Shown: in pieces, positions 16,034-56,592 of the stretch
Numbering within the stretch: the first letter of the stretch is position 1
How the letters are laid out: each line of letters starts with the position of its first letter
Origin: Reichenbachiella agarivorans
GTDB lineage: Bacteria > Bacteroidota > Bacteroidia > Cytophagales > Cyclobacteriaceae
Assembly (NCBI RefSeq): GCF_025502585.1
Contig: NZ_CP106679.1
Span: forward strand, 3,999,501 to 4,063,500
DNA: 64,000 bases
Direction: 5' to 3'
Program-made: the position numbers and the translations under genes
Notes under the pieces: model-generated
What the model was told of the DNA's origin: nothing
What the model saw: only the letters and a program-made list of their open reading frames with translations
Database searches by the model: none

Positions 16034-16036
16034 GAA

Positions 16037-17854: not shown

Positions 17855-17951
17855 CAATCTTTTTCTATTAAGTCCATAATATATTAAATACAGGATGCTA
17901 AAGTAAACAGTAGCGCAAGCAATGAGCATAGGCAAATACTCACCAAAAGGA

Positions 17952-17962
17952 GGGGGAATTTA
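17952..17962 (+). promoter_or_regulatory. Candidate regulatory motif GGGGGAATTTA in divergent promoter region
   Basis: This motif lies in the intergenic region between the divergent sulfatase run and the GH43 gene, 82 nt before the GH43 start. It resembles the element 88 nt before the second GH86 gene. The case rests on position and similarity only. Confidence 0.25.
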
Positions 17963-18043
17963 ATATGCAGTTATTTACCCCAGCCTTCATCATGTTTTTG
18001 AAACTAATATCGTGAAGCAAAAAATCAAACTCGCTTACAAAAG

Positions 18044-19549: not shown

Positions 19550-22500
19550 TTAGTGATGAATCATCAATTTCTTGTAGTCAAATTTATATTGAGCTCCCTT
19601 TAAGGAAACATAGTACACTCCCGACGGATAGTTATGTGTAGATAATTGAAACTTATCCAATCCAGCAGACATCTGTCCATTCTCAAATACTCTGCCTGTT
19701 TGATCATATATCACCCATTGGATACCTTCTGGCATCACTGTATCAAACTGAATAGTTACCAATTGATCCGAAGGATTAGGATACATCTTAAAATCCACAA
19801 TAGAATTCACATCATCCTCTACATCCAAGATATTGTTAGCAACCGTTGCCTTACTAGAAATGAACGCAGATTCACTGGAAGCACCTCCTGCTCGCAAAAT
19901 TTTGGCCTGATAAATTTCCTTGGTTTGTCTATTTTGGATGAATAAAACTGCTGCCAATTGATTATCATCAGCTATGTTGGCAATATCCCACTGTACATTT
20001 AGTGTTGTCACATCTCCATCGGCATCAGTCGTAGAACCCAAAGCCAGTGATTCTCCATTTGCTACATCATTGGCCAACTTAATGTACTTACCTGAAGCAT
20101 CTGGCAACATCTTCCTTAGCACATTCTTATGAAAATCTATCCCTCCAATTGACTGAGCAACCTCCTGTTCGATAATGGCTACATAAGCAACCAATTCTTC
20201 TCCCGCAGCTAAACCTTCAGGTTTGTTGATAGTAAACTTGACGGCACCTTTGATCTGCCCCTCTGTGGCGCTTGGGTCTGGTATCACCTCGATCAAGAAA
20301 CCAGGGTCTTCCAAAGAACTCAATGTCAAATCAATTTCTGTCCACGTCAAAGGATTAGATGCTGTAGGTGTAGCGGTACCCTCGTCACCATCTATAAATG
20401 AACTCACATTGTCTACATTGTACCAGCTGCGCCTAGCGGCTGGATCTGACTTGTTTAAGGCATTGAAGGGATCCTTGAATTCATCATCGATACTAATATG
20501 ATAGGTAATAGTCAGTTGATCATCTATCAAACCAGAAGCTTGCAACAAGGATTGAATGTTAGTATCGAGCAATTGGGTAGCAGCATTGGTTGCTGTGGCT
20601 CCATCAGCTATGCTATAGAACTGCTCTACAAGTACATTCTTTGATCTTTCTTGGATCACAAAGTCATCAAAGGCAAACCCAAAAGGCTTAGGTGTAGAAG
20701 TCTCAGCCGTAGATGCAATTGCAAACCTAAACTGCACATGCTTTCTATCTCCTGGGATTACATTCAAGCTATGTCGTGCTGATGCCCAAGTCAATTGATC
20801 ACCAGCTCCAGACCATCCTACAGAAGTCAGTGTATTGTCATTTTGAGTCTCCTGCTGATTACCTGGATCAGCACCTACGTTATCCCAATTGTACCATTCT
20901 AGGCCAGACTTGATGCCATTGACTCCACCTTCGTTGCTTCCGAGTGCCTTCCAAGACTGTCCATTATCAATTGAATACTGAAACACAACTCCGTCCTTGG
21001 CATCTTCAAAATTGTACAGCACGTTGAAAGAAACCATTGGTTTTTCTAATCCTGACAAATCAAACGCTGGACTGTACAACCAAGAATCTTCTCCGCCGAG
21101 ATACCTATTATTTCCATTTTGGTTCAAAGTAGACCACCCATATAGACCTGAAGTTGGTTTTTCTGGATCACTGGCAATAATGGTCGAAAAATCAGTGGCA
21201 CTCCAAACCCAGCTCGACATTCTTAGTGCCATACTACCTGTTTCGTCAATGATATTGATTGCATCATCCTTGAGTGTTTCGATATACCAACCATCATTGT
21301 CTGGCTCAAAGCTTCCTTGCTCAAAAGCTTGGAAATAGGGCTGATCTGGTGTTACCTCGATCAAAGGAAGAATATTGACATCACGCTGCAAACTACTTTT
21401 ACAATTGTTTTCGGTAGACAAGGTGACGGACACTTTATGTTTTCCTACGCTGTTGTAGGTATAATAAATAGGTTCAAAATCCTCGTCGGCCAATATCGAA
21501 CTAGGGACAGAATACCAAACTGTATCTGTGAGGTAATCAAAATTCATCCCGATACGAGCTATTCTATTACTCTCTAGAAGCAATTCATTGACAAAGAAAC
21601 TAGTTTCTTGATTGACCGTCACAGAGTCCCAAACAAAAGCAACACTAGGACTAATGAGAACTTCAACTTCCTTAGAAGTAATTTCATCTACCAACAAGGA
21701 TGTACATTCATTCTGAGGGCTAGATGTAGAAAAAGTATGAGTGGCATAAAGGTTTGCTGTGAAAATTTCTTCAAAACTAGAGCCCGTGATTTCTAACTTC
21801 TTAGTCAGTTCTCTTAGATTGTTGACCTCCATGGTTCCGTCTATATTATAGAGTGGGACATCTCCCCCATTCGCACTTTTCCAGTTCCACAAGTAGCTCA
21901 GATCCGACTCATTATAACCTGAACCAGTCTCAACAAATGCACTAAACTTTACATTTGGATCCACACAACCACCCTCGACATCAAAATTTACCTCTGGTTG
22001 ATCATAAAGCGTGATCACCTTTTCAACCGAATTGCTACATCCTCGCTGATCCTTGTATTCAAACCTAACCGTATAGTCGGCATTGAAACCGCCACCTGAA
22101 AGTGTTTTGATGTCTTGACCTACTTCTTGCGAGCCCCATCTTAATGGATCAAATGTAGCTTTGTTGATTGTACCTGAAGTTACAGGGAGATTGACTCCAT
22201 TGATATAATATTTACCATCATCACCTACTACATCTGCGGTGGCTTCTATCACAAAATCATCATAAGACTCACAAATTACAAATTCAGGAAATGCAAGGTC
22301 TGTAAAACCAATTTCATTACTAACCAAAGCCAATTGAGCTAATGGGTTTACTTTAACCTCCTTAGAAACACTGTTGGAACAACTGCTACTTGCATCTGTA
22401 TAAGTAAGAGTAACCGTATGTACAGTAGGATCTCCACCTTCTTCTGTACCAACTATTCCATTGTCATCTGTCAAGTAATGTGCTATACTTGGCAGAAACC

Positions 22501-25500
22501 CACCAGTTCCATCACCATAATCATTGATAGCAGTCATTCCAGAACTAACTGTGTATGTTCCTGAATTAACCGGAGTCACACCAATATAGCCTGTCAGTAT
22601 CACTTCGTCTCTGCTCACACAATATTCACCCGCAGCACTTCTAGTCCCTGTCTCAATATTTGGGAGGTTGATCGTAATATTTGGCAGAGGATTGATACTC
22701 AACGTAACATCGGCTGCTAGGGTATTGTCAAACTGACTACTCTTACATCCTCCTTCGATTGCAATCGCATAGTATTTAAGATCAATATCTGTGGCCGAAG
22801 AAACTGTTGGAAATGATGGGTGATTGTTGGCCAAAATTTGTGATCCATCGATGCTTTGTGAACTAAAAATCTGACTACTCAATCCAGCATTTGTAAACCA
22901 TTGAAACGTGACACCTGCATTGTAATCTGACATATTGCCAATATCTAAGGTCGTTATCGTCTCATTGGCACAATATAAATAGGTATTATCACCACTGTTA
23001 CCTGTCACAATTGGTTTTACTGGTATGTTGTTAACCGTGAAATCAAAACTCAAGTACTCACTCTCACATCCCGCGAACGTAGATCCTCCAATGTTTTTAT
23101 CAGTCAACTGTGATACAAAATATGTGTACACGCCATCTGTGGTGTTTAGCGGAGTATAGCTAGAAGCAAAAGCTTCATTCACCTGAGGGGTATCATCGAT
23201 TATATCATTGTCATTCGCATCGTATATCCAAGTAAATCTCTGTCCTGCAGAATTCAAGACCTGAAAAGAAGGTATTGTCGCTCCTTCACATATTGTAGGG
23301 GCATTGTTCACCAGGATAGGAGTACTTGGCACTGATCTGACTGAAATAGTGATTCTTACAGGAGTACTCTCAGCTCCAATAAAATTCTGATCACTACCTG
23401 AAGTGCCAGAGTCCTTATTAACTGCTACATAGAAAGTATATTCTCCAACCTCTGGAGTTCCACTCAAGTTGGTTCCACCATCAGTACGAGTCTCATCAGT
23501 TATCAAATCTACTGGATTGATGTATTCCCCTTCCAAACCAGTCATATTAGTACTAGTGAGTGGGTTGGTTCTAGCCACTGCATCTGCTTCGGATCTGTAC
23601 CAAACAAATTTCAAGTTAGGTTCACCATCGTCCGATGCGTTATTTTTTACTCGTATTGCTTGCACTGCATCTTCAAAACAGTAATATATTTCAGTTCTGT
23701 TGTTGAATTCGGTCGGGGTTGAGGGTTCGTCCCAAGTATTGACCTGTAGTTTGGCATAGTCACTTTGACAACCCACAAAATCACCACTGGTCTCTATGAA
23801 AGTCGTCTGATTGATCAGAAAATAACTATTAACATCCGTAGGTATTCCTGTTAGCCCCAATTCATTGGCCTGTGCTGAAGCATCTCTACTGTATGCTATC
23901 GCTATCTGACCAAATTTAGCTCCCAAATCATTGGAAATAAACCAATTAAAATTCTGTTCAAAGGTGACATCAGGCACAAAAGTGGTAGATGCGGTAAAAG
24001 TATTGGTAGCAGACAATGCACCAGCTTCAAAATTGAGAACTTCATCAATTCCTCCAGTGTACGCACCATTGTCAGATGGACCTTTGACTACAGGCGCGGA
24101 TGCTAATGGATACATTGTAATATCCACCAAGGAACGTGTAGGACTTTCACATCCAGCAAAATCAGTTGTCAACTTACTTGACCCTAAATAATTAGTCGTT
24201 TGAGACAAATATGCCATAGCATGATAGGTGCTCGACAATTCATAATATCCGCTACCTCCATTGGTAGGTGTACTTCCAGTCTCAGCAGTTAAACTAGGTA
24301 CCACATCCGCATAAGTGACATCCGTACCATCTGCACTTGCAATCGCACTGCCTCCAGTGCTCGCATCATACCAAGAGTATCTAACCAAACTAGCATGAGG
24401 GGTTAATATCGGATCGGTAGGTGCGATTCTTGTATTGAGATTCAATTCTCCAGAGCAAACATTGATATCAGACAAAGCATCTGTCAATGTAGGAGCAGCA
24501 GGAATCGGATATATCACCACGTTGATTTGCTTTAACATACTAGAGCAACCATCAAAGACTCCATTAAGATTTCTATTTTCTCTTTTCGCAACATATAGGG
24601 TATAAGTCCCAGATGTTGGACTATTTGGATCTTCACCAAAATGACCAAAAAATTCACTCCCAGTAATTGACACATTACCAATTGAGCTGATCAAACCTTC
24701 TCCAAGCCCGTCACCAACACCATTGGCATCAAGGTCTCCTACGCCAAACCCATCAATAATCGAGATACCATCACTATCATACCAATCATAAAACTCTTCA
24801 CCTATTTGTGTAGATGGCGAGGAAATCACAATATCATCAATAGCTCCTTGGCAATATTCAAAAGTATATACACCCCCAACCACATCAGCACCTACTGCAC
24901 TGACATCCACTACTGGATCACTTGGTGTGGGGTATATCTCAACGGTGAGTGTAGAGAAATCACTCTCACAACCTGTAAAACCTGTAAGATCAGTATAATG
25001 AACCTGAGTAAAATAAAAAGTATGTGAACCTACTGCTGGATTAATGGTTCCAAAAAGTTCATAAACCGTGGTGGAAGAAGTGACTTCTTCATGAATGAGT
25101 GTTCCTAACCCGCCAAAACCATCATCTTCATACCAAATAACCTTGGTCGTGGCATCTTGACCCGACACTACAAAATCTACCGGATTGTCTAAGTCACAAT
25201 ATTCTACTACATAATCATTAGTCCCTTGATCATAACCTACTCCCATGGTAGCCATGTCTAAAACAGGTTTGTTCGGTACTTGATGTAAGGTGAAAATTGC
25301 CGTTGCAGTATTGGTGCAACTCAGGTTACTAGAATTCACTCCTGGATCCTGCGCTTCAATTGAAGCAACTTCTATTTGATAACTAGAACCTAGGCCTGAT
25401 AGCGCAAGAGATGCCCCCAAAGAACCGTCAGCAATCGCTGAAAAATCTAAGCTTCCAGAGGGAATAGTCACATAATTGGCAGTGTTAAAATTTTTCGAAC

Positions 25501-28500
25501 CTGGAGTTGTCTCTTTGACGATTCGGTATTGCGTAAAGGTAATATCGGTAGTTGTATTGACCCCATGTTTGATATCGGCCTTTAAAGCCACACCTGCATC
25601 ATCAACACAAAAATCATTAGCAAGTTTGTTTTCAATCTCCAAAACAGGAAGATCATAAACGGTGATGTCCACATTACCCAAAGGATTCTTTACACCTTCA
25701 GGAGAAAAAGCACCATTAGGAGCAAAAAATCTAACAATTCTAAAATTTCCTGGTCCACTCACAGAGGGGTTGAAGTTCCATCCATCCGTAGGCCAATCGG
25801 CTGTGATTGGAACTGATCCACCTCCTGGAGCTGTCAAAGGATCACCAGCGCCAACTAATTCTGTATAACCACCTCCACCATCAGACATGAAAGCTTCCAA
25901 CTCATAAAACCACACGTTTGCAGGCTCATTACTTGGATTTGCATCCACATCCATGTTTACACTGACTGTGGATTCGCAGAAGTACTGCTCAACGGTATTA
26001 GTAAATAAATTCTCATCCGCATCAGACACATACAAAAGTTGAGAGATCAGAAATTGCTTGGCATCAAAATTTCTAGTCAAGGTATAGGTGATGTTGTATG
26101 GGGAATCAACATCTCCTACAGCACTAGGCTTGAATCTCACACTGGCAGAGTTAGTAGCCGCGTTAATGTTTTCAGAAACTAACCCAGACCCATTGAAATC
26201 ACCACTATGACCCGCACTTGGAAAATCCATAGTAATCACAGTCCCTACATTATCATCATCGGTAAAAGCCGTGGTATTTGGATTCAAACTAATACCAAAA
26301 ACTGCAATATCAACATCGGAAATATCACTCACACAGCCATCGACAGTTTCAGTTACTTGGACAGTATATAGGCCAAATGTCGAAGCTGAAAAATTGTTTG
26401 GGAATGTACCTGCAACCCAGCCTGTTTCATCCACAGTTGCGGTACTACCAGACTGTGCCGCTGAACCATTCAAATAAGTCCAATCAAAAGTCCCTCCAGT
26501 GCCAGACGCTGTTAAGTCAAAAGTACCATTTGGGTCAATTCTAAATTGATCGTTGGTCACATCTCCTGTGCCTGCCAGATTAATCGTGGGAGCAGCAGGT
26601 CTTGCCTTGCTTGAAACAGTTCCCAATACAAATGCAGGATTTCCTATATTGGCTCCAAAAATATTAGCAGTTCCTCCAAATCGTGTAAAGTTTACAGAAG
26701 TAGTCACAGTATTTTTTGCTCTTATCTCTAACCCTGTGATAGTGATTGTATTCAACTCAAGTAAAGAAGCTGCAGAGGCTGTATATTCTATTTGAAGCAA
26801 ATTAGCAGCAGGATAACTCACACTATACCCTGTTATTTCTGTTGAACCATTCACATCTATCGCTCCAACCAATTCATTAAATTCAAAATTGGTGGGCAAC
26901 TTAATCAGATAGTTGACTGCCGTTCCTGCTTTGATATCATTGGCAATACCTTCGGCAATCACTACGTCGGTAAATCCAGCATTTCCAGCCTCGGCTACTC
27001 CGTCTAAACACAAGTCTGTCCACAAAGCTGTGGTAACTGTGACACCACCAGTGGTGACATTGTTGAAACTGGCAACTGCTGACTGGTTGAATAATACTTT
27101 GTCTTCCACTATATAATAGACATCATAAACTGTATTAGGACTAAGAATGGCTGTCCTCGTGTAGTCAGTCGTTATACTGGAGACATCTATTGTACCAGAG
27201 GCCAATGGAGCTCCTCCACCAGATGCCTGTTGTAATTTCACTTCTGCTGCGGTGGGTGCAGTCGATCCATCAGCAACAATTACATAGTATATATCTCCTG
27301 TTTCGTCTGTGTTGAAAGTCAACTTAATCGTTGCATCTTCTGCACTAGCTGTTTCTATATCAAACTTAGGAGCAAAAGTATCAATCACCAAGGAGGCACT
27401 TGGTGCTGGATTATTTCCATAGTCCATGACTTCATTATGGGCATTGTTATAGGATATAGTCAAATTGCTAATTCCACTACTCAAGCCTCCTCCACTCATA
27501 GAGATCACTATATCTGCGTCATAAGCTGTGCCATCAGATACAGCTGTCACTGGGTAGGATCCTTCTCCATCCACAACAGTAAAATCAGTTGGATTCAACC
27601 CCGCAACTTGAACAATGTCATCAAAAGAAATAGTAATATCTGTATCGCTACTCACTACCGCACTGAGCATACTTGGTGCTATCTGATCAGTATCAATAAT
27701 GTATGAACTAAAATCCCCCAAAAAATTAGCCGCATTTGCTTGGTCTTGTATTTCTGTTGTAGATTTGACAAAAGATAAACTAAGATCTCCCACGGCAGCA
27801 CTCAAATCAGCAACTGTTAATTTTACTTGACTGGCTGCATGAGTCGCAAGCGCGCTTGATACAAAATCACTTCCTGCACCCTTTGTATCTTTCACCAAAA
27901 AGTCAGTTTCTTCTGAACCTACTAGGTTAATATTCCTATTAAAAGTCAATATCAATTCAGTTGCACTCAACTTGCTCACACTAGTCAACGCTATTTCATC
28001 GGCAGTACTAAAGGCCCAACCATTGTTGGTTACAATCCCAGCAAAAGCATTTCCATTGGTATCTGTAATCACCCCGTTTGGTATCACCACATAGTAAGAA
28101 GAAGATGAATTAAACGCAGGTGGTGTAATGGTAAGTGTCGTGCCCGAAATATTAACCATAGAGGTATTGGTAATATTGATCACCGTATTGTTAGGTGGTA
28201 CAGATTGCTCCACTATCGTAATCGAACCTGAACCAGCCTGAATATTTTCATTGAAAGTAACCGTCAAAGTGCCATTGAGTGATACCGCGGTAGCATTATT
28301 TAATGGAGAGAGGGTATTTACTATTGGAGGATCGGTATCTAATATGGTAATGTTGTTTGCCACCACATCGGTAAATCCTACTCCTGAGAAAGTAAGTACA
28401 TTGCCAGTACCAGGTGAGTCAATATTGAGGTCAGAGAATGTTACTTCTCCATTGGTCATGGATGCAGAAGATGTTCCTGTAAACGTACCAGAACCAGTAG

Positions 28501-30826: not shown

Positions 30827-31010
30827 ATAAACGACCTTTAGCATGCAACAGAATATAAACAAATTTGACCTTTGTGTGAGGTATCCCTCATACGGTATGG
30901 TTTGGTGGTTAATTTTGATTTACCATTCAAATACTTCATCGTACTGTTCATTCTTAAATATTTTTCATCCCTATACAACACAATTATCGAATTGTGTCCC
31001 TCCTCACATT

Positions 31011-32339
31011 TTACTTAAACTCTCCCCAAACATTAGTCTTCAGTAATGACATCATGGATGTCGATCCAAAGTCGACTGTCGCACCAATGACTAACGTCCC
31101 ATCAGCCCTCAATATTATAGCATCTGCTTTGTCATTGTCTTCGCTACCATACACTCTAAAATTGTCTAAATCTAGACTTCCAAAGGCATCCACTCTAAAA
31201 ATACCAATTTCGTTTTCTTTGAATTCACCATCTTCAGTCCTGAATCCATTGATTTGCCCTGCTATGTACACATCACCATTGTTTAATCTTACCAAGTCCA
31301 ATCCCTGTGTACCAGTAGCAGTAAAATTAAAGTCACCATTAGTGACGTCAATGTTCACAAAATCTATGTTTTCTTCTGGCAAGCTTTTGGGGACTCTTAG
31401 AAAGAAAGCTTGCTCGGATTGAACATCACCAGAAGTTCCTGTCACAAACAGAAAATTATTGAATGAAACGATGTTGTTGGGTACATCCGCACCCGCAGTA
31501 CCGTAGTAGCCACTGTTGATGGCAACACCACTCGATGGATTAAACTCTACAACAAACACATCCTTATTGCCATAACCAGTCGGATTACCTACTGGAATGG
31601 TCACTGTTGAAATATAGAAGTATCTACCATTGTCTTCTATCAGCTTTACGCCAGCATCTTCACTTCGAAGGCCTGTCAAATCATGCCATTTGGGTGCAAA
31701 AGTCTTGGCATCCACACTCATCAAAAGTATACTTTGTGGATCACTGAGATAAAGATCTTTACTCCATGTCTCTACACTCCCCAAAATAATGAATTCATCA
31801 TTGGCTTCATTGTATAAAATATCGGCTCCACTGGTCGATTTAGCACCTATGTTGTCTATGGCTACATTTTGAATCCTATCATCATAATACTGATACGCAA
31901 ATGACTCTATGGCCTGTCCAGTTGCAACATCGATGTTTAACAAGAAAATCCTCAAAGTATCAGAAATATTGCTTGTACCAATTGCCAAGAGATTTTGATC
32001 ATTGTTGAATAAACGAGCAGATGCAGGTATGTCTTGGCTGGCAGAATTGCCGTCTATTCCATCATCATAATTGTAAGACTCCTGCCAGATCCCATTACCA
32101 GCAGAATCCGTTTTGACTATATAAAAGTCATTGTCACCATTGGGCGTATTGGTATATCCCAAAATTAGAATCTCCCCAGACATGGTTTCTACCATGTCTA
32201 CTACTCCTTCATTGCCAGTAGTACCAAAATATTTGATAAACCTAGCTGATTGATCCAGACTGCTAGGATGGTCATCTATGCATCCAAAAGTCAAGATCAA
32301 AACACAGAAAAGCATTATATTTTTCATCCTATCCATCAT
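31011..32339 (-). CDS. Propeller-like outer-membrane lipoprotein
   Basis: 442 residues with a lipoprotein signal (MKNIMLFCVLILTFGC, Cys about residue 20). The rest consists of repeated strand units of the kind GEILILGYTNTP, NLLAIGTSN, EFIILGSVET, FLFVTGTSG and DVYIAGQING, as in SBBP/delta-60-type beta propellers. Its start overlaps the stop of the preceding barrel gene as ATGATGA-type coupled reading (4 nt overlap), so the two are translated together. I infer an outer-membrane-associated partner of the barrel protein or of the adhesin that follows. No enzymatic motif is visible. Confidence 0.75.
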   Translation of the reverse strand: MMDRMKNIMLFCVLILTFGCIDDHPSSLDQSARFIKYFGTTGNEGVVDMVETMSGEILILGYTNTPNGDNDFYIVKTDSAGNGIWQESYNYDDGIDGNSASQDIPASARLFNNDQNLLAIGTSNISDTLRIFLLNIDVATGQAIESFAYQYYDDRIQNVAIDNIGAKSTSGADILYNEANDEFIILGSVETWSKDLYLSDPQSILLMSVDAKTFAPKWHDLTGLRSEDAGVKLIEDNGRYFYISTVTIPVGNPTGYGNKDVFVVEFNPSSGVAINSGYYGTAGADVPNNIVSFNNFLFVTGTSGDVQSEQAFFLRVPKSLPEENIDFVNIDVTNGDFNFTATGTQGLDLVRLNNGDVYIAGQINGFRTEDGEFKENEIGIFRVDAFGSLDLDNFRVYGSEDNDKADAIILRADGTLVIGATVDFGSTSMMSLLKTNVWGEFK

Positions 32340-33466
32340 TTCTTAGCTCGCTTCTGATTTACCTTTTGCAGTTTCTTATCCGAATACTTCTTAGGATTAT
32401 AGAATGACTTGATATAACCCACCTTGACAGCCAAACTATTGATGGCCATGTCGTCATCTATATGTCCCATATTATAATTCAACTGATCCGAAGCATACCT
32501 ATTGGCGGAGTTAACAAAATTCTGCGCACCTACGCTGTAAGTAGCTTCTATAAAAAAGGAGTCTGTCCGCTTAAAATTAACTTTCATTCCCACTCCTCCT
32601 AGATATGACCAATTCGTCCTATTTCGCATTTTTAAATCCACCAAATCTAAATCAGTCACAAATTTGGTTCCTAATCCTCCTCTGTTACCTGTCATTTTTG
32701 CACTCAACAACCAATCAAAGGATACTCCTCCCATTACATAGGGTGTCACTGTCCCAATAGGAATGTTGTACCGCAAAGCCAGTGGTGTTCTCAACCATTG
32801 TTGGGACTCAGTCAACAATACCTCAAAAGCATTGGTTGCTTCATAACTACCATTGCTAATCAAGTTGTAATTGACCTCATATACATTACTGGCATACGTT
32901 GCTCTTAATAAAATCTCTAGATTTTTGACCAACATATATTCTATTCCAATACCTGCTGAAAAACCCATTTTAGAGGAATATTGTTTGGAAATTGGACTCC
33001 CTACAGAATCAAAATCATTGGATGAGGTATTAAACACTGCATAGGTTTTCATTGAATGAATACCAGTTGCATTTCCTCCGATAAAAGTCCCAATTCTAAA
33101 GATGGGTTTGGAACGATACTTTGCAAAAAGATACTTTAGCTCCGCAGGATCATTTGGATCATTTTCCGGATGCTCTGGGTCTACCAATAGTAGGTTCACA
33201 ACAGCGTCTTCTGCGTCAGGTTCGTTATCCATAAATAAATAAACCAATGCCAACAAACGATACGCTTTGATCTTCTCCTCCTTCGTGAATCCATCCTTTC
33301 CTGATGACAAGCAGTTTCCTTCATTGATTTTTTTGGTCACTTCATAAAGCCTACCTGCATCATACAAATCTTCAGCTTCACTCAGTTTTTGGGTACAACT
33401 CACTTGCGAATAAGACTCCAAAGCCATTCCCAAAATAAGTACTAGTGGAATAAGTATTTTTTTCAA
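32336..33466 (-). CDS. Outer-membrane beta-barrel protein with N-terminal helical repeat region
   Basis: 376 residues. Signal peptide 1-20 (ends SYSQ). Residues about 22-115 look like a short TPR-type helical region (AEDLYDAGRLYEVTKKINEG, KAYRLLALVYLF), followed by GYF/aromatic-alternating strands typical of a small outer-membrane barrel (FSAGIGIEYMLVKNLEILLRATY, TPYVMGGVSFDW, SYLGGVGMKVNF, SLAVKVGYIKSF). The C-terminus is Lys-rich. It lies 15 nt after the STAND NTPase gene and overlaps the lipoprotein gene. It is not a recognisable PorP/SprF protein, but a similar role in presenting or anchoring the adhesin is possible. Confidence 0.78.
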   Translation of the reverse strand: MKKILIPLVLILGMALESYSQVSCTQKLSEAEDLYDAGRLYEVTKKINEGNCLSSGKDGFTKEEKIKAYRLLALVYLFMDNEPDAEDAVVNLLLVDPEHPENDPNDPAELKYLFAKYRSKPIFRIGTFIGGNATGIHSMKTYAVFNTSSNDFDSVGSPISKQYSSKMGFSAGIGIEYMLVKNLEILLRATYASNVYEVNYNLISNGSYEATNAFEVLLTESQQWLRTPLALRYNIPIGTVTPYVMGGVSFDWLLSAKMTGNRGGLGTKFVTDLDLVDLKMRNRTNWSYLGGVGMKVNFKRTDSFFIEATYSVGAQNFVNSANRYASDQLNYNMGHIDDDMAINSLAVKVGYIKSFYNPKKYSDKKLQKVNQKRAKK

Positions 33467-33481
33467 ACTCAGTCAGTTTAT

Positions 33482-36400
33482 TTATTCTAATTCTTCACGT
33501 TTAGGCATTCCCTCACAGGTGTACTCATATTCAATATCATCCCCTACATAGGCCTCCCATGTCGTTTGAGTCAAATTCTCATTGACAATGTCAAACTCAC
33601 AGATTGCCAATGCCATCTGATCAGGCTGAGTAGGCCACAACCTAATCACGCCATCGCCAGCTGCGGTGACCAAAGAATAACCATCTGGCGCAAACGATAC
33701 AGCCCAGACATAACTCTTATTGCCAATCTTGTCTAAACTTTGATGGTCATCAAGATCTATCGGTAGGTCATTCAGGTATTTCATCACCCATAGTTTGGCT
33801 GTACCATCCAAACTAGATGAAGCCAACAGTGAATTGTCGTTGTTAAAGTCCAATTCAGTAACCGTAGCGTTATGTGAACTCAGTTTTTTGATGGTACGGT
33901 TGTCTTCCAAATCCCATAAAACTATGTCACCCGTCTCATCTCCAAATGCTAGGATACGCCCGTCCCCACTGAAGGTCACTGCACTCACCGAAGCACCTTG
34001 TTGTACATAGAGAGAGGTTTCCTCGTAGTTGTTTTCCATATCCCAGAGGTAGACACTCCCAGAATCACTTCCTCCTGCCAAATACCTCCCATCAGGACTA
34101 ATTGCCAATGATTTGACTCTTGAAGCAACTCTTGCTATTTCCTTGCTCTGGTTAAAATCATAAAGCCTGATCACTTTGTCACTGGAAGTAAATATGAATC
34201 CTTTGTTGTTATTGAGGTAGACCAAATCATGTACCACCCCTTGGTGTCCTTTGATCTCCTTAGGAACGGCATCTTTGCTCTTCAAATTGTACAAAAGAAT
34301 CTGATCATTGTCACTACCTATTGCCAGCCAGTTTTCATCAGGACTGATATCGACTACACGGTTGACTTGGTAGTTGTTGAGCAATTGTGTGCTTTTTCTG
34401 GTATCCATATCCCATAGCAAAATCCTCCCGTCGCTACCTGTAGAGTACATGCGTTGGCCATCTTTGGAATACTTCACAGACCTAACTGCCTCAGTGTGAC
34501 CTATGTAGTGGTTAAAAGTAGATGAATCTCCACCTGTCAATGCTTTGGTTGCATAATACACCCCAGCATACACATCAGGGTTGTATTGCTTGGTTGAGTA
34601 CTGGTTATCAAACTTCCAAGCTTGGCGCGCGATCAACGCTTGCTGCTCCACATCATCATCTATATTGAGTGACTTGATTGCCATCGAATTGGCAATTGCC
34701 TGATACCGAAGTGCCAATGCAGCTAGCTTCTGCTCATTGGCAACTTGCGCACTTTTATCTGCCTCAATCTGTGCCAAACGTGCCTCTTCTGCACTTGCTC
34801 TGGCTTTATTAGCATTTCTAGTAGCGAGTGCTTGTGCAGCCTCTGCCTTTAGCCTCTGAGCATTGGCTGCTGCCTCTGCCTTCCTCGCATTTTCTGCTTC
34901 AGCTTGTGCCCTCAGCCTCTCTTCATCTGCTCTTTCCAGTGCCTTTCTAGCTTCTACCGTTTTTTCATTAGCCAGCTTCTCTTGCTCCAATGCTTTCGCC
35001 TCCTGAATCTTGGCCAATTCCAAATTGGCCTCTGCCTTCGCGGTTTGTTTTTTTGCTTCTCCAGCACGTATCTGAGCTAGTACCACAAAGAAAATACATA
35101 TCAGCATCGCTACCCCAAGCACTACAGCAATCAACCTAGATCGTCTCAGAGCTCGTTTTTGCAGCAATTCTTTGTTGCGCTGCTCAGTTTCATATGCCTT
35201 CTTGCTGGTTTCAAGAAAAACCATCGTACGTTCAAAGGCAGGCTCGTATCTCTGTCCCCAAACCAAAGTTGGTTTGTTTTCTTCCTGCCAGTTCAATGCC
35301 AATTGCAAATCTGGCATCTTCCACAGACCTGCTCTACCCATCTGGAATCTCTCAGCTGAGTCAGACAGTTTGAGATACATCTCTGCTGACCTAGATTCTT
35401 CGTCCAGCCAGGACTTGAGCCTTGTCCAGATTCTCATCAAACTTTCGTGAGAGATATCGATTACCGTATCTGAATCTAGTCTAACACCATGCGGCGGCAT
35501 CAGCAAGGTTCTACCTGGTTCGCGAAACTTGTCTACTACTCTGCCTACTTCGTCTTCTGTGACGCCAGATATTGCAGCAATAGTCCCTACTTTGGTAGGA
35601 CGTCTGATACCAGAGGATTCTGTCCCCCTCTCTGTCAGCGCCTTGAACATAGACTCACAAATCTGCTGTTCGCGTTTGGATAATGAATCAAAAGCTTCGT
35701 TGGCGTGTTGAGAGAGTGCTTCTCTCAAAGTACCTACTGCATTGTAGTGCTTTAAATCCATAGGCTCGTCTTCACGACGATGCTCTTTCCAAAATTGCCA
35801 TGTACGCATCAATGCATGTTGCAAAATTGGGAGTTGATCGGGATTATCTCCGACATCATTGAGCAATTGCTGAGACAAACGGGGCGCTATTTTACCTCCA
35901 CCTACAGCTACAGGTCCTTCGATAGCCAATCTTTTTTGATCCCTCGTCATTTGTGGAATCAAATAGTGACTGTCATTGATCATCTGCGTCAATTCTGGGA
36001 ATTGTGCACAATCACCAATAAAATCTGATCGCATCGTCAATGCTACATAAATCGGTGCATCATACTGATGAACTGCCTCCAACAAGAGGTTGACAAATGC
36101 AGAAGACTCGTCCAAATCTGAAGACAAGGTTTCTAATTTTTTGTACCTAAAAAGCTCTTCAAACTGATCGACCAGAATCAATACGTTTTCATGTTCTGAT
36201 GACTTGAGTTGCTTCACTGCCTCGATCAAGCCCAAAGAACTACTTCTCAATACTGTTGAAGTAATAGTTTTACGGATGAGCTTATCCTCTTCGTCTATGC
36301 TATTGTATTGCTCATCTTTGGATAGCAAAGACTCTGCAAGGTTGTCAATAGGACCTCCACCTGGTCTTGTCACGACAATTCTCCAATTGGATCCGGCTTG

Positions 36401-36655
36401 AGTCATGAACCCACCATATAGCGTAGGTATCAATCCACAATACATCAAAGATGATTTCCCACTACCTGATGCGCCTAAAACTCCAACAAACTTGTTCTCT
36501 GACAATTTCATCAAAACTTCGTCGCTCTGACCCTCACGTCCAAAGAACAGGTGACTTTCTTCTACACCAAAGGGTCTCAACCCCGGAAAGGGGTCTACGA
36601 ATTGGGTGATATCATCCAATCTGGTATCGCTAGTATGTAAGTCTTTTTCGGTCAT
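33482..36655 (-). CDS. nSTAND1 NTPase with membrane segment, coiled coil and WD40 propeller
   Basis: 1057 residues. The N-terminus has the nSTAND1 entry motif (PFPGLRPFGVEESHLFFGRE), Walker A GASGSGKSS (61-69) and Walker B ILVDQFEELFR; a winged-helix region follows to about 430. One membrane segment (about 506-525) is followed by a long Ala/Glu/Lys-rich coiled coil (about 526-660) and WD40 repeats (about 715-1030, for example SGDGRILAFGDETGDIVLWDL). STAND proteins are signal-activated NTPase switches that oligomerise; WD40 repeats usually form the sensor. The coiled coil plus membrane segment places sensor and NTPase on opposite sides of, or both tethered to, the inner membrane; topology is not certain. 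It starts 1 nt after the TIR-like gene. Confidence 0.9.
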   Translation of the reverse strand: MTEKDLHTSDTRLDDITQFVDPFPGLRPFGVEESHLFFGREGQSDEVLMKLSENKFVGVLGASGSGKSSLMYCGLIPTLYGGFMTQAGSNWRIVVTRPGGGPIDNLAESLLSKDEQYNSIDEEDKLIRKTITSTVLRSSSLGLIEAVKQLKSSEHENVLILVDQFEELFRYKKLETLSSDLDESSAFVNLLLEAVHQYDAPIYVALTMRSDFIGDCAQFPELTQMINDSHYLIPQMTRDQKRLAIEGPVAVGGGKIAPRLSQQLLNDVGDNPDQLPILQHALMRTWQFWKEHRREDEPMDLKHYNAVGTLREALSQHANEAFDSLSKREQQICESMFKALTERGTESSGIRRPTKVGTIAAISGVTEDEVGRVVDKFREPGRTLLMPPHGVRLDSDTVIDISHESLMRIWTRLKSWLDEESRSAEMYLKLSDSAERFQMGRAGLWKMPDLQLALNWQEENKPTLVWGQRYEPAFERTMVFLETSKKAYETEQRNKELLQKRALRRSRLIAVVLGVAMLICIFFVVLAQIRAGEAKKQTAKAEANLELAKIQEAKALEQEKLANEKTVEARKALERADEERLRAQAEAENARKAEAAANAQRLKAEAAQALATRNANKARASAEEARLAQIEADKSAQVANEQKLAALALRYQAIANSMAIKSLNIDDDVEQQALIARQAWKFDNQYSTKQYNPDVYAGVYYATKALTGGDSSTFNHYIGHTEAVRSVKYSKDGQRMYSTGSDGRILLWDMDTRKSTQLLNNYQVNRVVDISPDENWLAIGSDNDQILLYNLKSKDAVPKEIKGHQGVVHDLVYLNNNKGFIFTSSDKVIRLYDFNQSKEIARVASRVKSLAISPDGRYLAGGSDSGSVYLWDMENNYEETSLYVQQGASVSAVTFSGDGRILAFGDETGDIVLWDLEDNRTIKKLSSHNATVTELDFNNDNSLLASSSLDGTAKLWVMKYLNDLPIDLDDHQSLDKIGNKSYVWAVSFAPDGYSLVTAAGDGVIRLWPTQPDQMALAICEFDIVNENLTQTTWEAYVGDDIEYEYTCEGMPKREELE

Positions 36656-36656
36656 G

Positions 36657-38153
36657 TTAGTTTTCCAGTTTAGCTAAGAATGGATCTAATGATGTAGGTA
36701 CAAACGATGCTCCTCCCAATACCATTGTTCTGGTCATTTGTATATTTTGATTGTCGACTCTGGATTGATCCTCAGCAAATATCGCTGAAGCCTTCATCGG
36801 CTTGATTCTCCCAAAGCCTGGAGCTTTGAGCAAATCTTGAAGTTTGGTTCTAATCCAATCTTCAGAGGATTTTCCAAAATAGATCAGCGAAGCATCACAG
36901 CGTCTCAAATTTTCCTGGTGCAAATACCTCAAATCCATCAATTGTCCTTCAAACAAAGAAGTCACTACATTGTAACCCTTTTGTTTCAAATATTCAGATA
37001 TGGGCTTGGAAGATTCCAAATCGAGTTGGTCACAGATGAGGTAGATGATGTTGCCCTCATCAGGCAAAGAGTGATCGTGTTTATTTTCCTTTGATTTGAA
37101 TCGACCACCTGTGACCAATTCCTCTCTGATGATAGATTTTAATTCCTGAAGTGGAATTTGTAACACTTCTGCTTCATCAAGTGCCGCAGCGTCACTTTTT
37201 AGATCCTCTATGAATATTTTCTGTCTCTCGCTGATGTTTTTCAAATCTGGAGACAACCAAATCAATCTGCTGAATTTATCCGAAGTGATGCCTTTTTTGT
37301 TCTTTTCATTCAACTCAAAAGTATGTTTTGAAGCAATCTTGTTTTGAATATCGACCACTGACAATTCTGATCCTCGTGGTGCATATCCATAATCCTCTCC
37401 GATCAAATGAATAGACAAACAGCAACTCTCCAAGTCCTTCTTTACGACTGATTCTAGAGAGTGAATCTCTTTGGGTAGAGACTGGTCTGGCAACACACGG
37501 TATCCATGTCTGATCAATTCTCTCTTGACTATATCTCGCTGGATGATCATATCTACACCAGAGTTCGCCAAATAAATCGTCTTCTCTTTGTCTATTTCTT
37601 TAGGAATCGACTTTTGTGTAGAGACCTCCTCTAGTTTCCTTTGGATTTGATGAATATCATAGGCCATATCCACCATTTTCATCCAGTAGCTTCGCTCTGC
37701 CTCGTTACCAAAGAACCGTCTGAATTCCTGAGGCTCCCCTGTCAGTGGATCAATCTGATAAAAATCATAGGACAGTATGTCTGAGTAATCAGGCAAATAC
37801 TCATCTATATCAATGGGAAACTTGATGACTTTGAGCAATCTAGACAATCCTCCCAATTGTAATGAACCACTTTCTTTGGCTGTACTGGCAAAGAGATTCA
37901 CCCCATTGATCAAAATGGGATTATTGAGGAAGTTTTTAGAAAAAATTGAAATCAACAAGGCACTGTTGCTATACAAATCAAGGTGGCTATCGCTTTCGTT
38001 GACCATTTTGATCTTAGGCTTGACACCTGAAACTTGCTCTACAAGTGTGGAGAGAAACTTATAAAAATTCGTCACCCAACCTTTGCCATCACCACTGATA
38101 GGCTGATCATCCAAAGTATGATAAGCAAGTAATATATCGTGTTCAAATTTCAT
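36657..38153 (-). CDS. TIR/DUF4062-like multimodule signalling protein
   Basis: 498 residues without signal peptide or membrane segment, so cytoplasmic. Three flavodoxin-like modules can be seen. Residues 1-130 start FEHDILLAYHTLDD and include SALLISIFSKNFL, as in TIR domains. Residues about 190-280 have TIYLANSGVDMIIQRDIVKREL, GYRVLPD and IHLIGEDYGYAP, as in DUF4062. Residues about 370-460 (NIIYLICDQLD, GYNVVTSLFEGQ, CDASLIYFGKSSEDW) are again TIR-like. I cannot confirm a catalytic NADase Glu. In conflict and signalling systems such proteins are effectors or adaptors of STAND NTPases, and here the STAND gene starts one base after its stop. Confidence 0.75.
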   Translation of the reverse strand: MKFEHDILLAYHTLDDQPISGDGKGWVTNFYKFLSTLVEQVSGVKPKIKMVNESDSHLDLYSNSALLISIFSKNFLNNPILINGVNLFASTAKESGSLQLGGLSRLLKVIKFPIDIDEYLPDYSDILSYDFYQIDPLTGEPQEFRRFFGNEAERSYWMKMVDMAYDIHQIQRKLEEVSTQKSIPKEIDKEKTIYLANSGVDMIIQRDIVKRELIRHGYRVLPDQSLPKEIHSLESVVKKDLESCCLSIHLIGEDYGYAPRGSELSVVDIQNKIASKHTFELNEKNKKGITSDKFSRLIWLSPDLKNISERQKIFIEDLKSDAAALDEAEVLQIPLQELKSIIREELVTGGRFKSKENKHDHSLPDEGNIIYLICDQLDLESSKPISEYLKQKGYNVVTSLFEGQLMDLRYLHQENLRRCDASLIYFGKSSEDWIRTKLQDLLKAPGFGRIKPMKASAIFAEDQSRVDNQNIQMTRTMVLGGASFVPTSLDPFLAKLEN

Positions 38154-38180
38154 TCTCGGTTGCTTTACTGGTATATATCA

Positions 38181-41100
38181 TCAATTGAATAATGACTCAA
38201 CTTCTTCTTCTATCTCACTTTCGTTGACTATCGTAAGGATACCATCGACCATCTCTACATTGCGAGAAACTGCATCGTACAATTCGTCCTTACCTATTGT
38301 AAGCAACAAACACTCTGTCTCTGTAGTCAAGTTGTAGGGGTAAACGTCCGACATCAAGATTAACTTGTGTCCTACGATCCCTTTTTCCTCCAATATCTTG
38401 CTGGTGCCGTCCTCATAATCCACTCTGAGTGACCCCTTCAATACTATATAAACTGGTGCTGTACCATAATCGCCAATCTCGGCAATCGTAGTATTGGCTC
38501 CTACTTTGATCTCTTCAAATCTCTTGCAAAGTTCAAGCAAAATCACCCCTGGTATTCCTTTGAAAATCTCAATCTGCTTGAGCATAATCACCCTTTCTAT
38601 CACCAAAAGCTTTTGATGAACATCCTCCTGATTGATTTTGAAAACTGGAGGAACAATATCCTTGTCCAATCTCTTTTTCAAGGTAGTTTTTAATCGTTTG
38701 GTATGGTATTGATAGGCATCCGCATCTAGTTTGTACATCGTAGCTGCCGCCGTTTGTACCATCACATAATCTGGATTGAACAAATTGGCAATCAAATCAT
38801 CTGTCACCTTCTGACCTCTGATCAGAGATAGTTTATAGATCGCTAGGCACTTGGTGTACTTGTTGATATTGTTGTAATCTCGGTTGACTATCTGCAAGAG
38901 CAAATCCGAATAATCCTCAAAGTTCTCGGGAGGGAAATAATTGTTCAACCTTTTCAGCTTTTCTTCAGGAGTCACATCATCCAACACTGCAGATAGTTTG
39001 GGCTTGATGTTCTCATCCACAAAAATATCAAGCATCTCAATCCCAAATGACACACTGTCCGTAGTTCCTAAGTCAATATTGTCACGCACGAGTTTGATAC
39101 TCTGTGCATCATATATCATCGATAGCAACATGAAGATCAAATCAAAATTCTTCTTGTTTTCTTCCTCAAAAGCAGCAAAAATCAAGCGATCAAAGAAGTC
39201 TGTTCTAGGTATCTCTTGTACCGCTTTGATGTTCCAAGCCAAATCGCTGATGGTACTTTCAATCGCAATTTTAATCCTCGCCGCATAAAAATCCTTGGCA
39301 GAAAACCCAATGTAACTGAGTGACAACAGCATCTCAGAAACGATGGCCTTGTCAGGAAAATCAATCTTTTTCCAGAGCATTTCACTGGCGGTTTTTCCCC
39401 CAATCTTACCCATGATTTGAATAATCCGAACCATGGTATCCGTATGCTGTGCAGTTTTGTAAAATGCTGAATCTATGGCATAGAAAACCGTCTCTCCAGA
39501 AGCTATCAATGCTGAATCAGCATAATTGCTATACGCAGGTATGTGCAAATTTTCTATCAGGACATTCCAAAACTCTGGTCGCTTCAGCTTCCCTGCAGTG
39601 GTGATGGCCGCTCTGCGTACAGAAGGATTGATGTCACGCAACAGCTCGGTGAGGAACGGCACAAACTTATCATCCTCCAGCTTAACCAGCACTCGTGCCG
39701 CAAATATCCTATCTTTGGTTTCAGTAGACCGTACCAATTTCTTGATTCCTGCCTCGGTAAGCTGGTAATCTTCCAACTCCTGAAGTACCTCTATAGTATT
39801 GGCAGCTACCAAACGAACCTCTGGGTCTTCTTCCTTCTTAATCTCTCTCTCTAGTATATCCAGCGTATTGAAGCTCATCAAATACCCCAATCGGTAGTAG
39901 GCATATTGTCGAAGTGACTTATGCTGTGAGCGAATAAAATCTAGCAATGAAAAATCGAGCAGAATTGGCTCCATTTTTTCCATCAATTTGAGGGCATTTT
40001 GCGCTCTTCCCTCGTCCCTTCTCAAGAGTTCTTTTTTCAGAATATTGATGGTATTGTATTCATTTTTTGTTCCTGCACCATGAAGTTTAACCTTTTGATC
40101 TTCCAGAGTCAGTAGCAATTGTGACTTGTACTCAGTGTACAGTTTGCCTGCGTAGTAAATAATGAACCCTGCCAGTAAAAGGATAAAGTAGGCATAATGA
40201 ATGAGTTCAAAGAAGACAAACAAACCCATGACTATCTGCAAGCCTCCAGCAATCAAGATCGCAGTCTGATTGACTACTCCCTCTATTCTTGATTGGATAT
40301 CAAAGCGGATTTTTACATCAAAGGGCAAGAAAAACAATTTGAAGGCGGGATTCTCTAGCGCATCCTTGAGTGAAGAGGTAAACACCTTGCCTACAACCAA
40401 AAAGATAAAGAAAAAGAGGAACTCATCTGTTTTTTCTTCATAACCAAACATGTGTCCAGAAAAAATCGCACCAATCGTAAACAAACCAAGTACCAATGGC
40501 ATCACCATCAGTGATACCCTCAACCCAAAACGACCAATGATGATATCATTGATAAAACTTTGGATGATAAAACTCAATACCATGACCGCCGCATTGGCAA
40601 ACGATAGGAAATTCCTTAACTCTTCATCTCCCTTTTCTGGATTGGGATCAACAGGGTACATGATTTCTGTGGCAGAAATATAAACGTAATTGGCAAATAC
40701 CGCTGAACTCATAGAAAACACCATAAACAAGCACAGCATCCTCATGTATTTGTCCTTGAACAAGTCTCTATATGTTATTTGTCGGACAGTAACCTTCTCA
40801 TCCTTTCTGGTTTTAGTCGTGGCATCCAGGTTGTAATCTTTGACAATCCAAATCGTCACGATCAATATACCTAAGGCAGAAAATGCAGAGAAAAACAACA
40901 AGTCATACGTGTTGTCAATGATATCCAAACTAGTCAAAAGCGGAATAGAAAAGAAGGCAATCATGGTAGCCGTCAACTGTCCAGTATCGATTCCCCCTAT
41001 GGTTCGTTTGGCTTGCTTGAGATCGAATATCCGACCAAATATCCCCCAAAATCCCAATAGTGTGATAGCAGTCACAGGCCCTATCATTACAAACAAAATA

Positions 41101-41456
41101 AAAGGCAATATCTGAAACCCTTCATCTAGTTGATCATAGTCTGTGTACCAAAATGCCAGTCTCAACAGTGATATGAAAAGAAAAATCAGAAAAGCATTGG
41201 AAACAACCAATGTAGAAAAATTTGACCTTTTCTGGATATACACATACAAGGCTGTTGTGAATATTCCTAGAGCACCCGCTAAGAAAAATGCGACATCAAG
41301 ATAAGCCTCCCCTAAAGTGCCAATAAATAGCGTTTCTGCTCCTACTTGATAGGTAGCCAAAAAAACCCCCATAAAGAAACCCTTGCTTAGCAATAGAAGC
41401 ATAGTCTTTTCTTCACCAGGTTTTCCGCCTAGAAAGGATAAAAAGGATTGTAGCAC
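38181..41456 (-). CDS. MFS/nucleotide-transporter-like membrane protein with HEAT repeats and CNB-like domain
   Basis: 1091 residues. The first about 430 residues carry about 12 membrane segments and resemble the ATP/ADP-antiporter-like branch of MFS proteins (KGFFMGVFLATYQVG, FWGIFGRIFDLKQAKRTIGGID). Residues about 460-930 are helical HEAT-like repeats (EVRLVAANTIEVLQELED, DRIFAARVLVKLEDDKFVPFLTELL, PSVRRAAITTAGKL). The C-terminal 140 residues form a cyclic-nucleotide-binding-like beta roll (FKGIPGVILLELCKRFEEIKV, IVLKGSLRV). The phosphate-binding cassette Arg is not evident, so it may bind another ligand or act as a protein interface. It is the first gene of the cluster and ends 27 nt before the TIR-like gene. 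The transport substrate is unknown. Confidence 0.82.
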   Translation of the reverse strand: MLQSFLSFLGGKPGEEKTMLLLLSKGFFMGVFLATYQVGAETLFIGTLGEAYLDVAFFLAGALGIFTTALYVYIQKRSNFSTLVVSNAFLIFLFISLLRLAFWYTDYDQLDEGFQILPFILFVMIGPVTAITLLGFWGIFGRIFDLKQAKRTIGGIDTGQLTATMIAFFSIPLLTSLDIIDNTYDLLFFSAFSALGILIVTIWIVKDYNLDATTKTRKDEKVTVRQITYRDLFKDKYMRMLCLFMVFSMSSAVFANYVYISATEIMYPVDPNPEKGDEELRNFLSFANAAVMVLSFIIQSFINDIIIGRFGLRVSLMVMPLVLGLFTIGAIFSGHMFGYEEKTDEFLFFFIFLVVGKVFTSSLKDALENPAFKLFFLPFDVKIRFDIQSRIEGVVNQTAILIAGGLQIVMGLFVFFELIHYAYFILLLAGFIIYYAGKLYTEYKSQLLLTLEDQKVKLHGAGTKNEYNTINILKKELLRRDEGRAQNALKLMEKMEPILLDFSLLDFIRSQHKSLRQYAYYRLGYLMSFNTLDILEREIKKEEDPEVRLVAANTIEVLQELEDYQLTEAGIKKLVRSTETKDRIFAARVLVKLEDDKFVPFLTELLRDINPSVRRAAITTAGKLKRPEFWNVLIENLHIPAYSNYADSALIASGETVFYAIDSAFYKTAQHTDTMVRIIQIMGKIGGKTASEMLWKKIDFPDKAIVSEMLLSLSYIGFSAKDFYAARIKIAIESTISDLAWNIKAVQEIPRTDFFDRLIFAAFEEENKKNFDLIFMLLSMIYDAQSIKLVRDNIDLGTTDSVSFGIEMLDIFVDENIKPKLSAVLDDVTPEEKLKRLNNYFPPENFEDYSDLLLQIVNRDYNNINKYTKCLAIYKLSLIRGQKVTDDLIANLFNPDYVMVQTAAATMYKLDADAYQYHTKRLKTTLKKRLDKDIVPPVFKINQEDVHQKLLVIERVIMLKQIEIFKGIPGVILLELCKRFEEIKVGANTTIAEIGDYGTAPVYIVLKGSLRVDYEDGTSKILEEKGIVGHKLILMSDVYPYNLTTETECLLLTIGKDELYDAVSRNVEMVDGILTIVNESEIEEEVESLFN

Positions 41457-56392: not shown

Positions 56393-56592
56393 ATTAAATT
56401 TTAATTTAGAAATTGTCTACTCTGTTAAATGCTTTTCGACTACCGCATATTTCTTGGGACAAGTGGTATTAATTCACTTCAGATCAAATCTAGGAATGAA
56501 AACTAATCAGGAGAATTGAATCACCTAGAAGGGAACAGAAGGTTGGTATTGCAACAATAAATAAAAATCTACTGCTGCATTCATTATCCTCA

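Follow-up and report, generated by a model that had tools for sequence, protein, structure and literature searches.

Why would a STAND ATPase and a TIR-like protein be encoded in one run with an outer-membrane barrel, a lipoprotein and a giant adhesin exported by the type IX secretion system (T9SS)? The question is raised by six open reading frames (ORFs), all on the minus strand, between positions 41456 and 19550 of the 64,000-nt stretch of the Reichenbachiella agarivorans contig NZ_CP106679.1 that we analyzed (the window); the organism belongs to the order Cytophagales. A sequence-only reading of the window had proposed contact sensing or contact-dependent defence, with the adhesin as sensor and the STAND/TIR pair as response module. 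Our comparative analysis leads us, with about even confidence, to regard the operon as a trans-envelope system for sensing surfaces from outside to inside, in which the STAND ATPase would transduce adhesin engagement.

The six-gene run was found as the earlier reading had described it. From gene 1 to gene 5 the ORFs are separated by 27, 1 and 15 nt and then overlap by 4 nt, and between the lipoprotein and adhesin genes lie 148 nt if the longest ORF, with its TTG start, is taken, or 184 nt if translation begins at an ATG 12 codons further on. The TIR-like protein is 82%, 75% and 73% identical to those of Reichenbachiella agariperforans, R. faecimaris and R. versicolor, respectively, and has matches in 82 of 148 genomes sampled across the family, 42 of 194 across the order and 14 of 395 across the phylum, where matches outside the order were weak or partial (best E 8e-21). 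We inspected one locus from each of 40 family genomes, out of the 82 with a TIR match. The genes for an inner-membrane NTT-HEAT-cNBD fusion (gene 1 in the window), the TIR-like protein, the STAND protein and the barrel stand side by side in 36 of these 40 loci, in 30 of which the lipoprotein and adhesin genes are present too; the other four are lone TIR genes (L069, L073) or TIR-STAND pairs (L075, L076). Outside the family, we looked at 20 loci from 19 genomes of the same order; 18 keep the run TIR-STAND-barrel, and in 15 of these the NTT gene immediately precedes it. The run is also kept by 70 of 80 named loci, nine of the others running into the locus end and one lacking an anchor; the named and unnamed sets partly coincide and are not independent samples. 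Since these loci were picked by a TIR match, they give no frequency for operons that lack TIR. The order is thus not specific to the strain, and because it recurs across many genera the run is not a product of chance; conservation across genera extends to the direct joining of a STAND NTPase with a T9SS adhesin in one operon.

Gene 3 matched the Pfam families nSTAND1 (E=2.3e-98) and WD40 and has a single hydrophobic segment (residues 508-526), in agreement with the nSTAND1-coil-WD40 protein with one membrane segment that had been described. Walker A, DQFEE and a membrane segment within residues 440-620 were present in all 68 STAND proteins compared (all distinct), and in every one the 15 residues before the segment hold more Lys/Arg than the 15 after it. 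Exactly one segment exceeds the threshold in 66 of the 68, and at least two Cys lie within the last 80 residues in 66. The WD40 part is accordingly predicted to be periplasmic in 68/68. In 47 proteins the distance between the membrane segment and the coil end was measurable; it amounts to 122-134 residues in 36 of these (range 51-141); by arithmetic on the residue count, such a coil is predicted to form one helix of about 19 nm, which is near the width of the periplasm.

A second type of operon bears on what this protein would contact. The draw of 395 genomes from the phylum contained 11 STAND proteins with coil and WD40; 10 match the model to its end, and the WD40 of the one from genome G513 was shown by blastp. 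In all 11 cases, the STAND gene is followed by a gene starting with a TPR-like domain, which encodes a small barrel in seven and a TonB-dependent receptor in four (genomes G582, G352, G513 and G157; loci L249, L278, L250 and L251 among the sister operons). The receptors of G582 and G513 were named by Pfam, and with the C-terminal end of the G352 receptor as query those of G582, G513 and G157 were 58%, 49% and 37% identical. The TPR-like domain of the window barrel is common to these receptors: one of them aligned with the barrel profile over receptor residues 16-114 (hhalign E=9.3e-14). All four receptor-type STAND proteins have the Walker motifs and the membrane segment. In G582, G513 and G157 the receptor gene is followed by genes for a small acetyltransferase-like protein (assigned by eye) and an NTT-HEAT-cNBD protein, and in G352 the NTT gene lies on another contig. 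A propeller histidine-kinase-like protein is encoded behind the NTT gene in both sister operons scanned (L235, and L238 without a HisKA match), and L235, the one locus with that gene scanned, also has a response regulator-SpoIIE protein. No anti-sigma or sigma factor beside a receptor was found among the proteins scanned, which cover part of the sister-operon flanks.

This content indicates that the outer-membrane part has been swapped, while the TPR-like domain, the STAND protein and mostly the NTT protein were kept. The receptor swap and the sensor kinase that follows in the two operons scanned point to signalling from outside to inside. We put at even chances the broader proposal that these operons form a previously undescribed class of trans-envelope signalling systems in Bacteroidota, in which an NLR-like STAND ATPase of the inner membrane would hold its sensor propeller across the periplasm and, by way of a shared TPR-like adapter, read outer-membrane receptors that can be exchanged for one another; its usual partner at the inner membrane would be an NTT-HEAT-cNBD protein.

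The adhesin appears to belong to the same device. Its Pfam matches at E 0.01 are Big_5 and Por_Secre_tail only, with a type A sorting tail and no match to type B, and it counts 3758 residues from the ATG, so the earlier description as a T9SS adhesin of that length holds. The type A tail was found in 5/5 complete relatives scanned. All 11 complete adhesins that we compared match the window adhesin best in its C-terminal 500-1000 residues, and six of them have shorter matches elsewhere as well; this C-terminal module, taken without the sorting tail, occurs once in its own genome. We examined its linkage to the barrel in 17 single-contig genomes, nine chosen for the operon and eight for an absent or partial TIR match, of which G156 proved to have the operon. 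Since the barrel profile also meets unrelated barrels, all 17 have some match, and a barrel was counted as full-length at about 290 or more of 344 positions. There were 14 such barrels in 10 genomes and 16 full modules; a module lies within 22 kb of 14/14 barrels, and a barrel beside 14/16 modules. In the seven genomes that lack a full-length barrel no full module was found, though G085 and G091 give short partial matches. Fisher's exact test for 10/10 against 0/7 gives 5e-5, a value that ignores descent. Adhesins with the operon-type C-terminal module and no recognised STAND or barrel gene beside them lie at L247:9493-12993 and L248:9894-20000.

The two genes between the STAND protein and the adhesin were also confirmed in kind. 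Pfam gives a small outer-membrane barrel for gene 4, and the structure model of gene 5 is a beta-propeller, as had been read from the sequence, with no Pfam family at E 0.01.

The TIR-like protein turned out to be accessory. Its TIR/DUF4062-like label was borne out by DUF4062 in 33/33 and TIR_2 in 22/33 aligned homologues at E up to 1, the window protein alone being sub-threshold; it belongs to the TIR fold, and no hydrophobic segment over threshold was found in it. The catalytic motif of TIR-domain NADases, W-x2-E, is present in 0 of the 127 TIR rows (109 distinct) of operon loci, nine of which have Glu at the aligned column without the Trp (for example L042, L067 and L071); on its absence we rejected the operon TIR protein as an active NADase effector. 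Among TIR-STAND pairs outside the operon type, 5/15 keep W-x2-E (L075, L076, L262, L264 and L265). These other-type pairs, at L075:5495-9459, L076:5501-9429, L260-L268 and L274, include some that look like ordinary conflict systems.

As operons without TIR had to be sought in another way, we used 19 loci fetched via second or stray NTT copies. Seven hold NTT, STAND, barrel, lipoprotein and adhesin genes without TIR, six are partial and lack TIR, one has TIR and five have the NTT gene alone. The seven whole TIR-less operons form one clade (7/7) in the trees of STAND (support 1.0), barrel (0.78) and lipoprotein (0.96), and the NTT tree unites them with three NTT-only loci in a single clade (support 1.0). 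The operon has therefore been duplicated as a whole in at least one lineage, with TIR optional. As these paralogous operons keep every other gene and the operon TIR rows lack the NADase motif, the STAND/TIR pair is not supported as the response module; an adhesin or receptor as sensor, with the STAND protein as transducer, is supported by analogy only. Before the NTT gene of one TIR-less operon (L197:2178-4861) are genes for a hexapeptide transferase, a small unknown protein, a rhomboid protease and an OmpH/Skp-like protein, and ORFs of similar size lie upstream of the NTT gene in several other genomes with TIR-less operons. At L198, L200, L204 and L246, an NTT-HEAT-cNBD gene without STAND genes has other genes behind it; the first three fall inside the TIR-less clade of the NTT tree.

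Gene 1 had been read as an MFS/HEAT/CNB-like protein. The HEAT and cNMP-binding parts stood, and the membrane part has a remote NTT (ADP/ATP-carrier) fold instead: its profile (A7) matched 9j3n (E=1.4e-15) and 9j3j (E=1.9e-14), both NTT carriers and the only two distinct PDB sequences at E <=0.001. Single-sequence Pfam searches on homologues were weak, with TLC in 1/20 and MFS_1 in 4/20, and the plain MFS label was rejected on the profile match despite the latter. cNMP-binding domains carry an Arg in the phosphate-binding cassette; by eye, R-x-A at its usual place was seen in 0/20 homologue rows. At the column of plant NTT1 E245 the 20 homologues have Pro (19) or Ala (1), and at that of K527 none has Lys and three have Arg; the numbering offset of 84 was deduced from the PDB profile match, and K155 lies outside the alignment. 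In the sections of PMC3306366 available, substitution of E245 or K527 impairs transport or ATP binding, and K527R retained some import activity. ATP/ADP exchange of the plant NTT1 type was rejected for gene 1 on these replacements, and transport of that kind is doubtful from its residues.

Divergence within the genus sets the cytoplasmic parts apart. Between the window and L039, nonsynonymous divergence (pN) is 0.10, 0.11, 0.11, 0.22, 0.24 and 0.46 for genes 1 to 6, the last from the first 800 codons (511 aligned), so that the cytoplasmic parts, at 0.10-0.11, are under strong amino-acid constraint in the genus. In 49 loci with all five proteins, tree distances correlate most closely for NTT-STAND (0.85), NTT-TIR (0.82), barrel-lipoprotein (0.80) and STAND-barrel (0.78), and least for TIR-lipoprotein (0.30).

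We propose the following mechanism. The adhesin, which has a hydrophobic N-terminal signal and a sorting tail, would be exported by Sec and the T9SS, and its conserved C-terminal module would dock at the lipoprotein or barrel, as the linkage of module and barrel leads us to infer. The TPR-like domain of the barrel would hang in the periplasm and meet the WD40 propeller at the end of the STAND coil. Other STAND proteins switch state when their C-terminal sensor repeats are engaged; by analogy, adhesin engagement would alter the TPR-WD40 contact and the cytoplasmic STAND ATPase would change state. At the inner membrane the STAND protein usually has the NTT-HEAT-cNBD protein as its partner, which would probably provide the output, together with the TIR-fold scaffold in operons that have one. 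In the sister type, barrel, lipoprotein and adhesin are replaced by a TonB-dependent receptor that bears this TPR-like domain.

Several points weigh against this proposal. Domains, gene order, linkage and the module swap are observed, and topology and coil length are predictions. The contacts between the parts, including docking and the TPR-WD40 meeting, are ones that we infer, as are the STAND switch, its direction and its output. The periplasmic side of the WD40 part follows from charge and Cys only, and the C-terminal Cys pair is absent in two of the four receptor-type STAND proteins. The adhesin operons encode no recognised enzyme as output; output thus falls to scaffolds, given an NTT domain without E245/K527 and a TIR protein without the NADase motif. 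The seven small barrels of the phylum draw come from four genomes of one family, that of the window. Six of the 36 family loci have no recognised adhesin behind the lipoprotein gene, some being cut by contig ends, and two adhesin modules, in G120 and G151, have no operon nearby. In the linkage analysis, the cut for full-length barrels was set after seeing the list, and some loci also supplied rows of the profiles. The six distant TIR-less loci form no clean clade (5/6 group in the STAND tree, the group is broken in the barrel tree, and they mix with TIR-bearing loci in the NTT tree). Each tree correlation exceeds its own 500 label permutations, uncorrected for descent.

Control might instead run from inside to outside, with ATP switching of the STAND protein acting through the coil to set how the adhesin is held, presented or released, in a Lap-type or gliding-related manner. 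We consider this less likely. The ATPase that carries the periplasm-spanning part has intact Walker motifs, adhesin frames reach 6,775 codons, and some of the genera with the operon are gliders (Reichenbachiella, Marinoscillum, Chryseolinea and Fulvivirga). STAND proteins are, however, known as switches triggered at C-terminal sensor repeats and not as motors, and the sister operons, which pair the same STAND protein with a TonB-dependent receptor and, in the two scanned, a sensor kinase, fit sensing. Of the 148 family genomes, 142 have GldB and 82 have the TIR gene, so GldB does not track the operon. Lap-type adhesin retention employs a cyclic-di-GMP receptor (GGDEF/EAL) and a periplasmic protease; neither appears among the Pfam matches of the operon proteins (for STAND, the best 25 of 50 families).

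In a further reading signalling plays no part, and one large T9SS substrate would simply be fastened to the envelope by lipoprotein, barrel and STAND coil. We consider such an accessory anchor improbable: the dedicated module linked with the barrel and the type A tail of the relatives would suit it, but it leaves unexplained the intact NTPase motifs in 68/68 homologues, the NTT-HEAT-cNBD partner and the exchange for a TonB-dependent receptor followed by a sensor kinase. Contact-dependent or anti-phage defence, in which a surface part would sense an attacker and the STAND/TIR pair would kill or stall the cell, is likewise improbable: conflict systems are known to use nSTAND1 and TIR families (parts of PMC8195603 and PMC10907252) and a third of the other-type TIR-STAND pairs retain W-x2-E, but whole paralogous operons lack TIR, the operon TIR rows lack the motif, PADLOC gave no specific match in the five operon proteins scanned, genes 1 to 5 (HEAT-ARM_XIII and a short mad3 only), the cytoplasmic parts are strongly constrained and the neighbours in the window are metabolic, with the same gene, PEPCK, in four of five relatives checked; this part of the sequence-only proposal is not supported.

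The preferred reading, an outside-in sensing system, can be set beside known ones. In cell-surface signalling of the Fec/Fpv type, TonB-dependent receptors with N-terminal periplasmic extensions stand alongside an anti-sigma and a sigma factor. The pre-plug domain of the sister operons is likewise a candidate link to an inner-membrane protein; unlike in the Fec/Fpv type, the partner is a STAND ATPase, the extension is TPR-like, and the window has barrel, lipoprotein and adhesin in place of the receptor. SprB is a giant T9SS gliding adhesin with a type B sorting tail. The window adhesin is also a giant T9SS-exported surface protein of Bacteroidota but differs from SprB in its type A tail, its own C-terminal module and its dedicated STAND operon. 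TPR-like and propeller parts at the outer membrane are shared with PorE and other Bacteroidetes tethers of outer membrane and peptidoglycan as described in the available part of PMC12204202; there PorE is one lipoprotein with a peptidoglycan-binding domain, whereas Pfam matched none in the barrel or lipoprotein here.

Gene 1 shares its domain order, and by profile match its fold, with the NTT-HEAT-cNBD fusions of Major et al. (2017; PMC5381601), which the accessible text describes as functionally uncharacterised and for which it proposes ATP-related roles; gene 1 differs in being tied to a STAND-envelope operon and in the two replaced NTT1 residues, and TIR and WD40 do not occur in the main text of that paper. 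With the nSTAND1 conflict ATPases (PMC8195603, PMC10907252, as far as these were available), gene 3 shares the NTPase clade, C-terminal sensor-type repeats and, in some cases, TIR neighbours; unlike them, it holds the repeats across the inner membrane on a long coil and has an outer-membrane partner and no fused effector. The part of PMC10907252 available predicts periplasmic sensor and lectin domains in STAND targets and names no outer-membrane partner, and the word adhesin is absent from the main text of PMC7159879 and PMC8195603. No description of such an operon was found among the papers listed in the open literature searched, a limited negative with subscription papers and preprints outside its scope.

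The features of the operon are collected in Table 1. In a promoter and terminator scan, 26 promoter-like sites (shuffle mean 28.7) and 9 terminator-like sites (7.0) were counted; with no excess, the scan is uninformative about the transcript. Inverted repeats in the lipoprotein-adhesin gap, at 30872-30895 (scan) and about 30962-31000 (by eye), are a possible processing or attenuation site. On the upstream side, the gene for phosphoenolpyruvate carboxykinase (PEPCK; 41868-43491, plus strand) is broken up into a pair of overlapping ORFs that lie in different frames. In L039, L040, L079 and L080 it is a single ORF of 539-542 aa adjoining the operon, and it was not found in L081, the fifth relative checked; the split is either a frameshift in the window strain or a sequencing error. 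Adjoining the adhesin end, positions 14369-19381 encode two sulfatases and a GH43-CBM6 enzyme, a polysaccharide-use neighbourhood. A DUF805b cis-regulatory RNA scored above the gathering threshold at 56414-56449 (minus strand).

Table 1. Features of the six-gene operon, in window positions.
Feature	Position	Strand	Basis
Gene 1: NTT (TLC ADP/ATP-carrier fold)-HEAT-cNBD inner-membrane fusion, 1091 aa	38181..41456	-	
Gene 1, NTT-fold membrane domain, aa 1-440	40137..41456	-	profile match to NTT structures
Gene 1, HEAT repeats, about aa 451-912	38721..40106	-	HEAT_2 in 20/20 homologues
Gene 1, cNMP-binding-like domain, aa 984-1066	38259..38507	-	matched in 17/20 homologues
Gene 2: three TIR/NDT-like alpha/beta domains, predicted cytoplasmic, accessory	36657..38153	-	
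Gene 3: nSTAND1-membrane segment-coiled coil-WD40 protein, 1057 aa	33482..36655	-	
Gene 3, nSTAND1 NTPase domain, aa 22-439, predicted cytoplasmic	35339..36592	-	Pfam
Gene 3, membrane segment, aa 508-526, more Lys/Arg on N-terminal side	35078..35134	-	
Gene 3, Ala-rich heptad coiled coil, about aa 527-660, predicted to cross the periplasm	34676..35077	-	
Gene 3, WD40 propeller, about aa 715-1015, predicted periplasmic	33611..34513	-	
Gene 4: outer-membrane protein, TPR-like N-terminal domain and barrel, 376 aa	32336..33466	-	
Gene 4, TPR-like helical adapter domain, about aa 24-118, two conserved Cys	33113..33397	-	
Gene 5: propeller lipoprotein, acid-rich residues after lipid Cys, 442 aa	31011..32339	-	
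Gene 6: giant adhesin-like T9SS substrate, 3770 aa from TTG, 3758 from ATG	19550..30862	-	
Gene 6, three near-identical 300-bp repeats, N-terminal head	29529..30439	-	95% matches
Gene 6, conserved C-terminal module, about aa 3135-3690, candidate docking part	19793..21460	-	
Gene 6, type A T9SS C-terminal sorting domain (Por_Secre_tail), aa 3693-3768	19559..19786	-	

A defined and conserved gene set of this kind bears on how Bacteroidota relay information from surface adhesins to the cytoplasm. If the outside-in reading is true, it would place a STAND (NLR-like) ATPase in envelope sensing and not in immunity, with its sensor repeats outside the cytoplasm, and would suggest a role for the NTT-HEAT-cNBD fusions. 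Such a device may let the cell sense what it touches.

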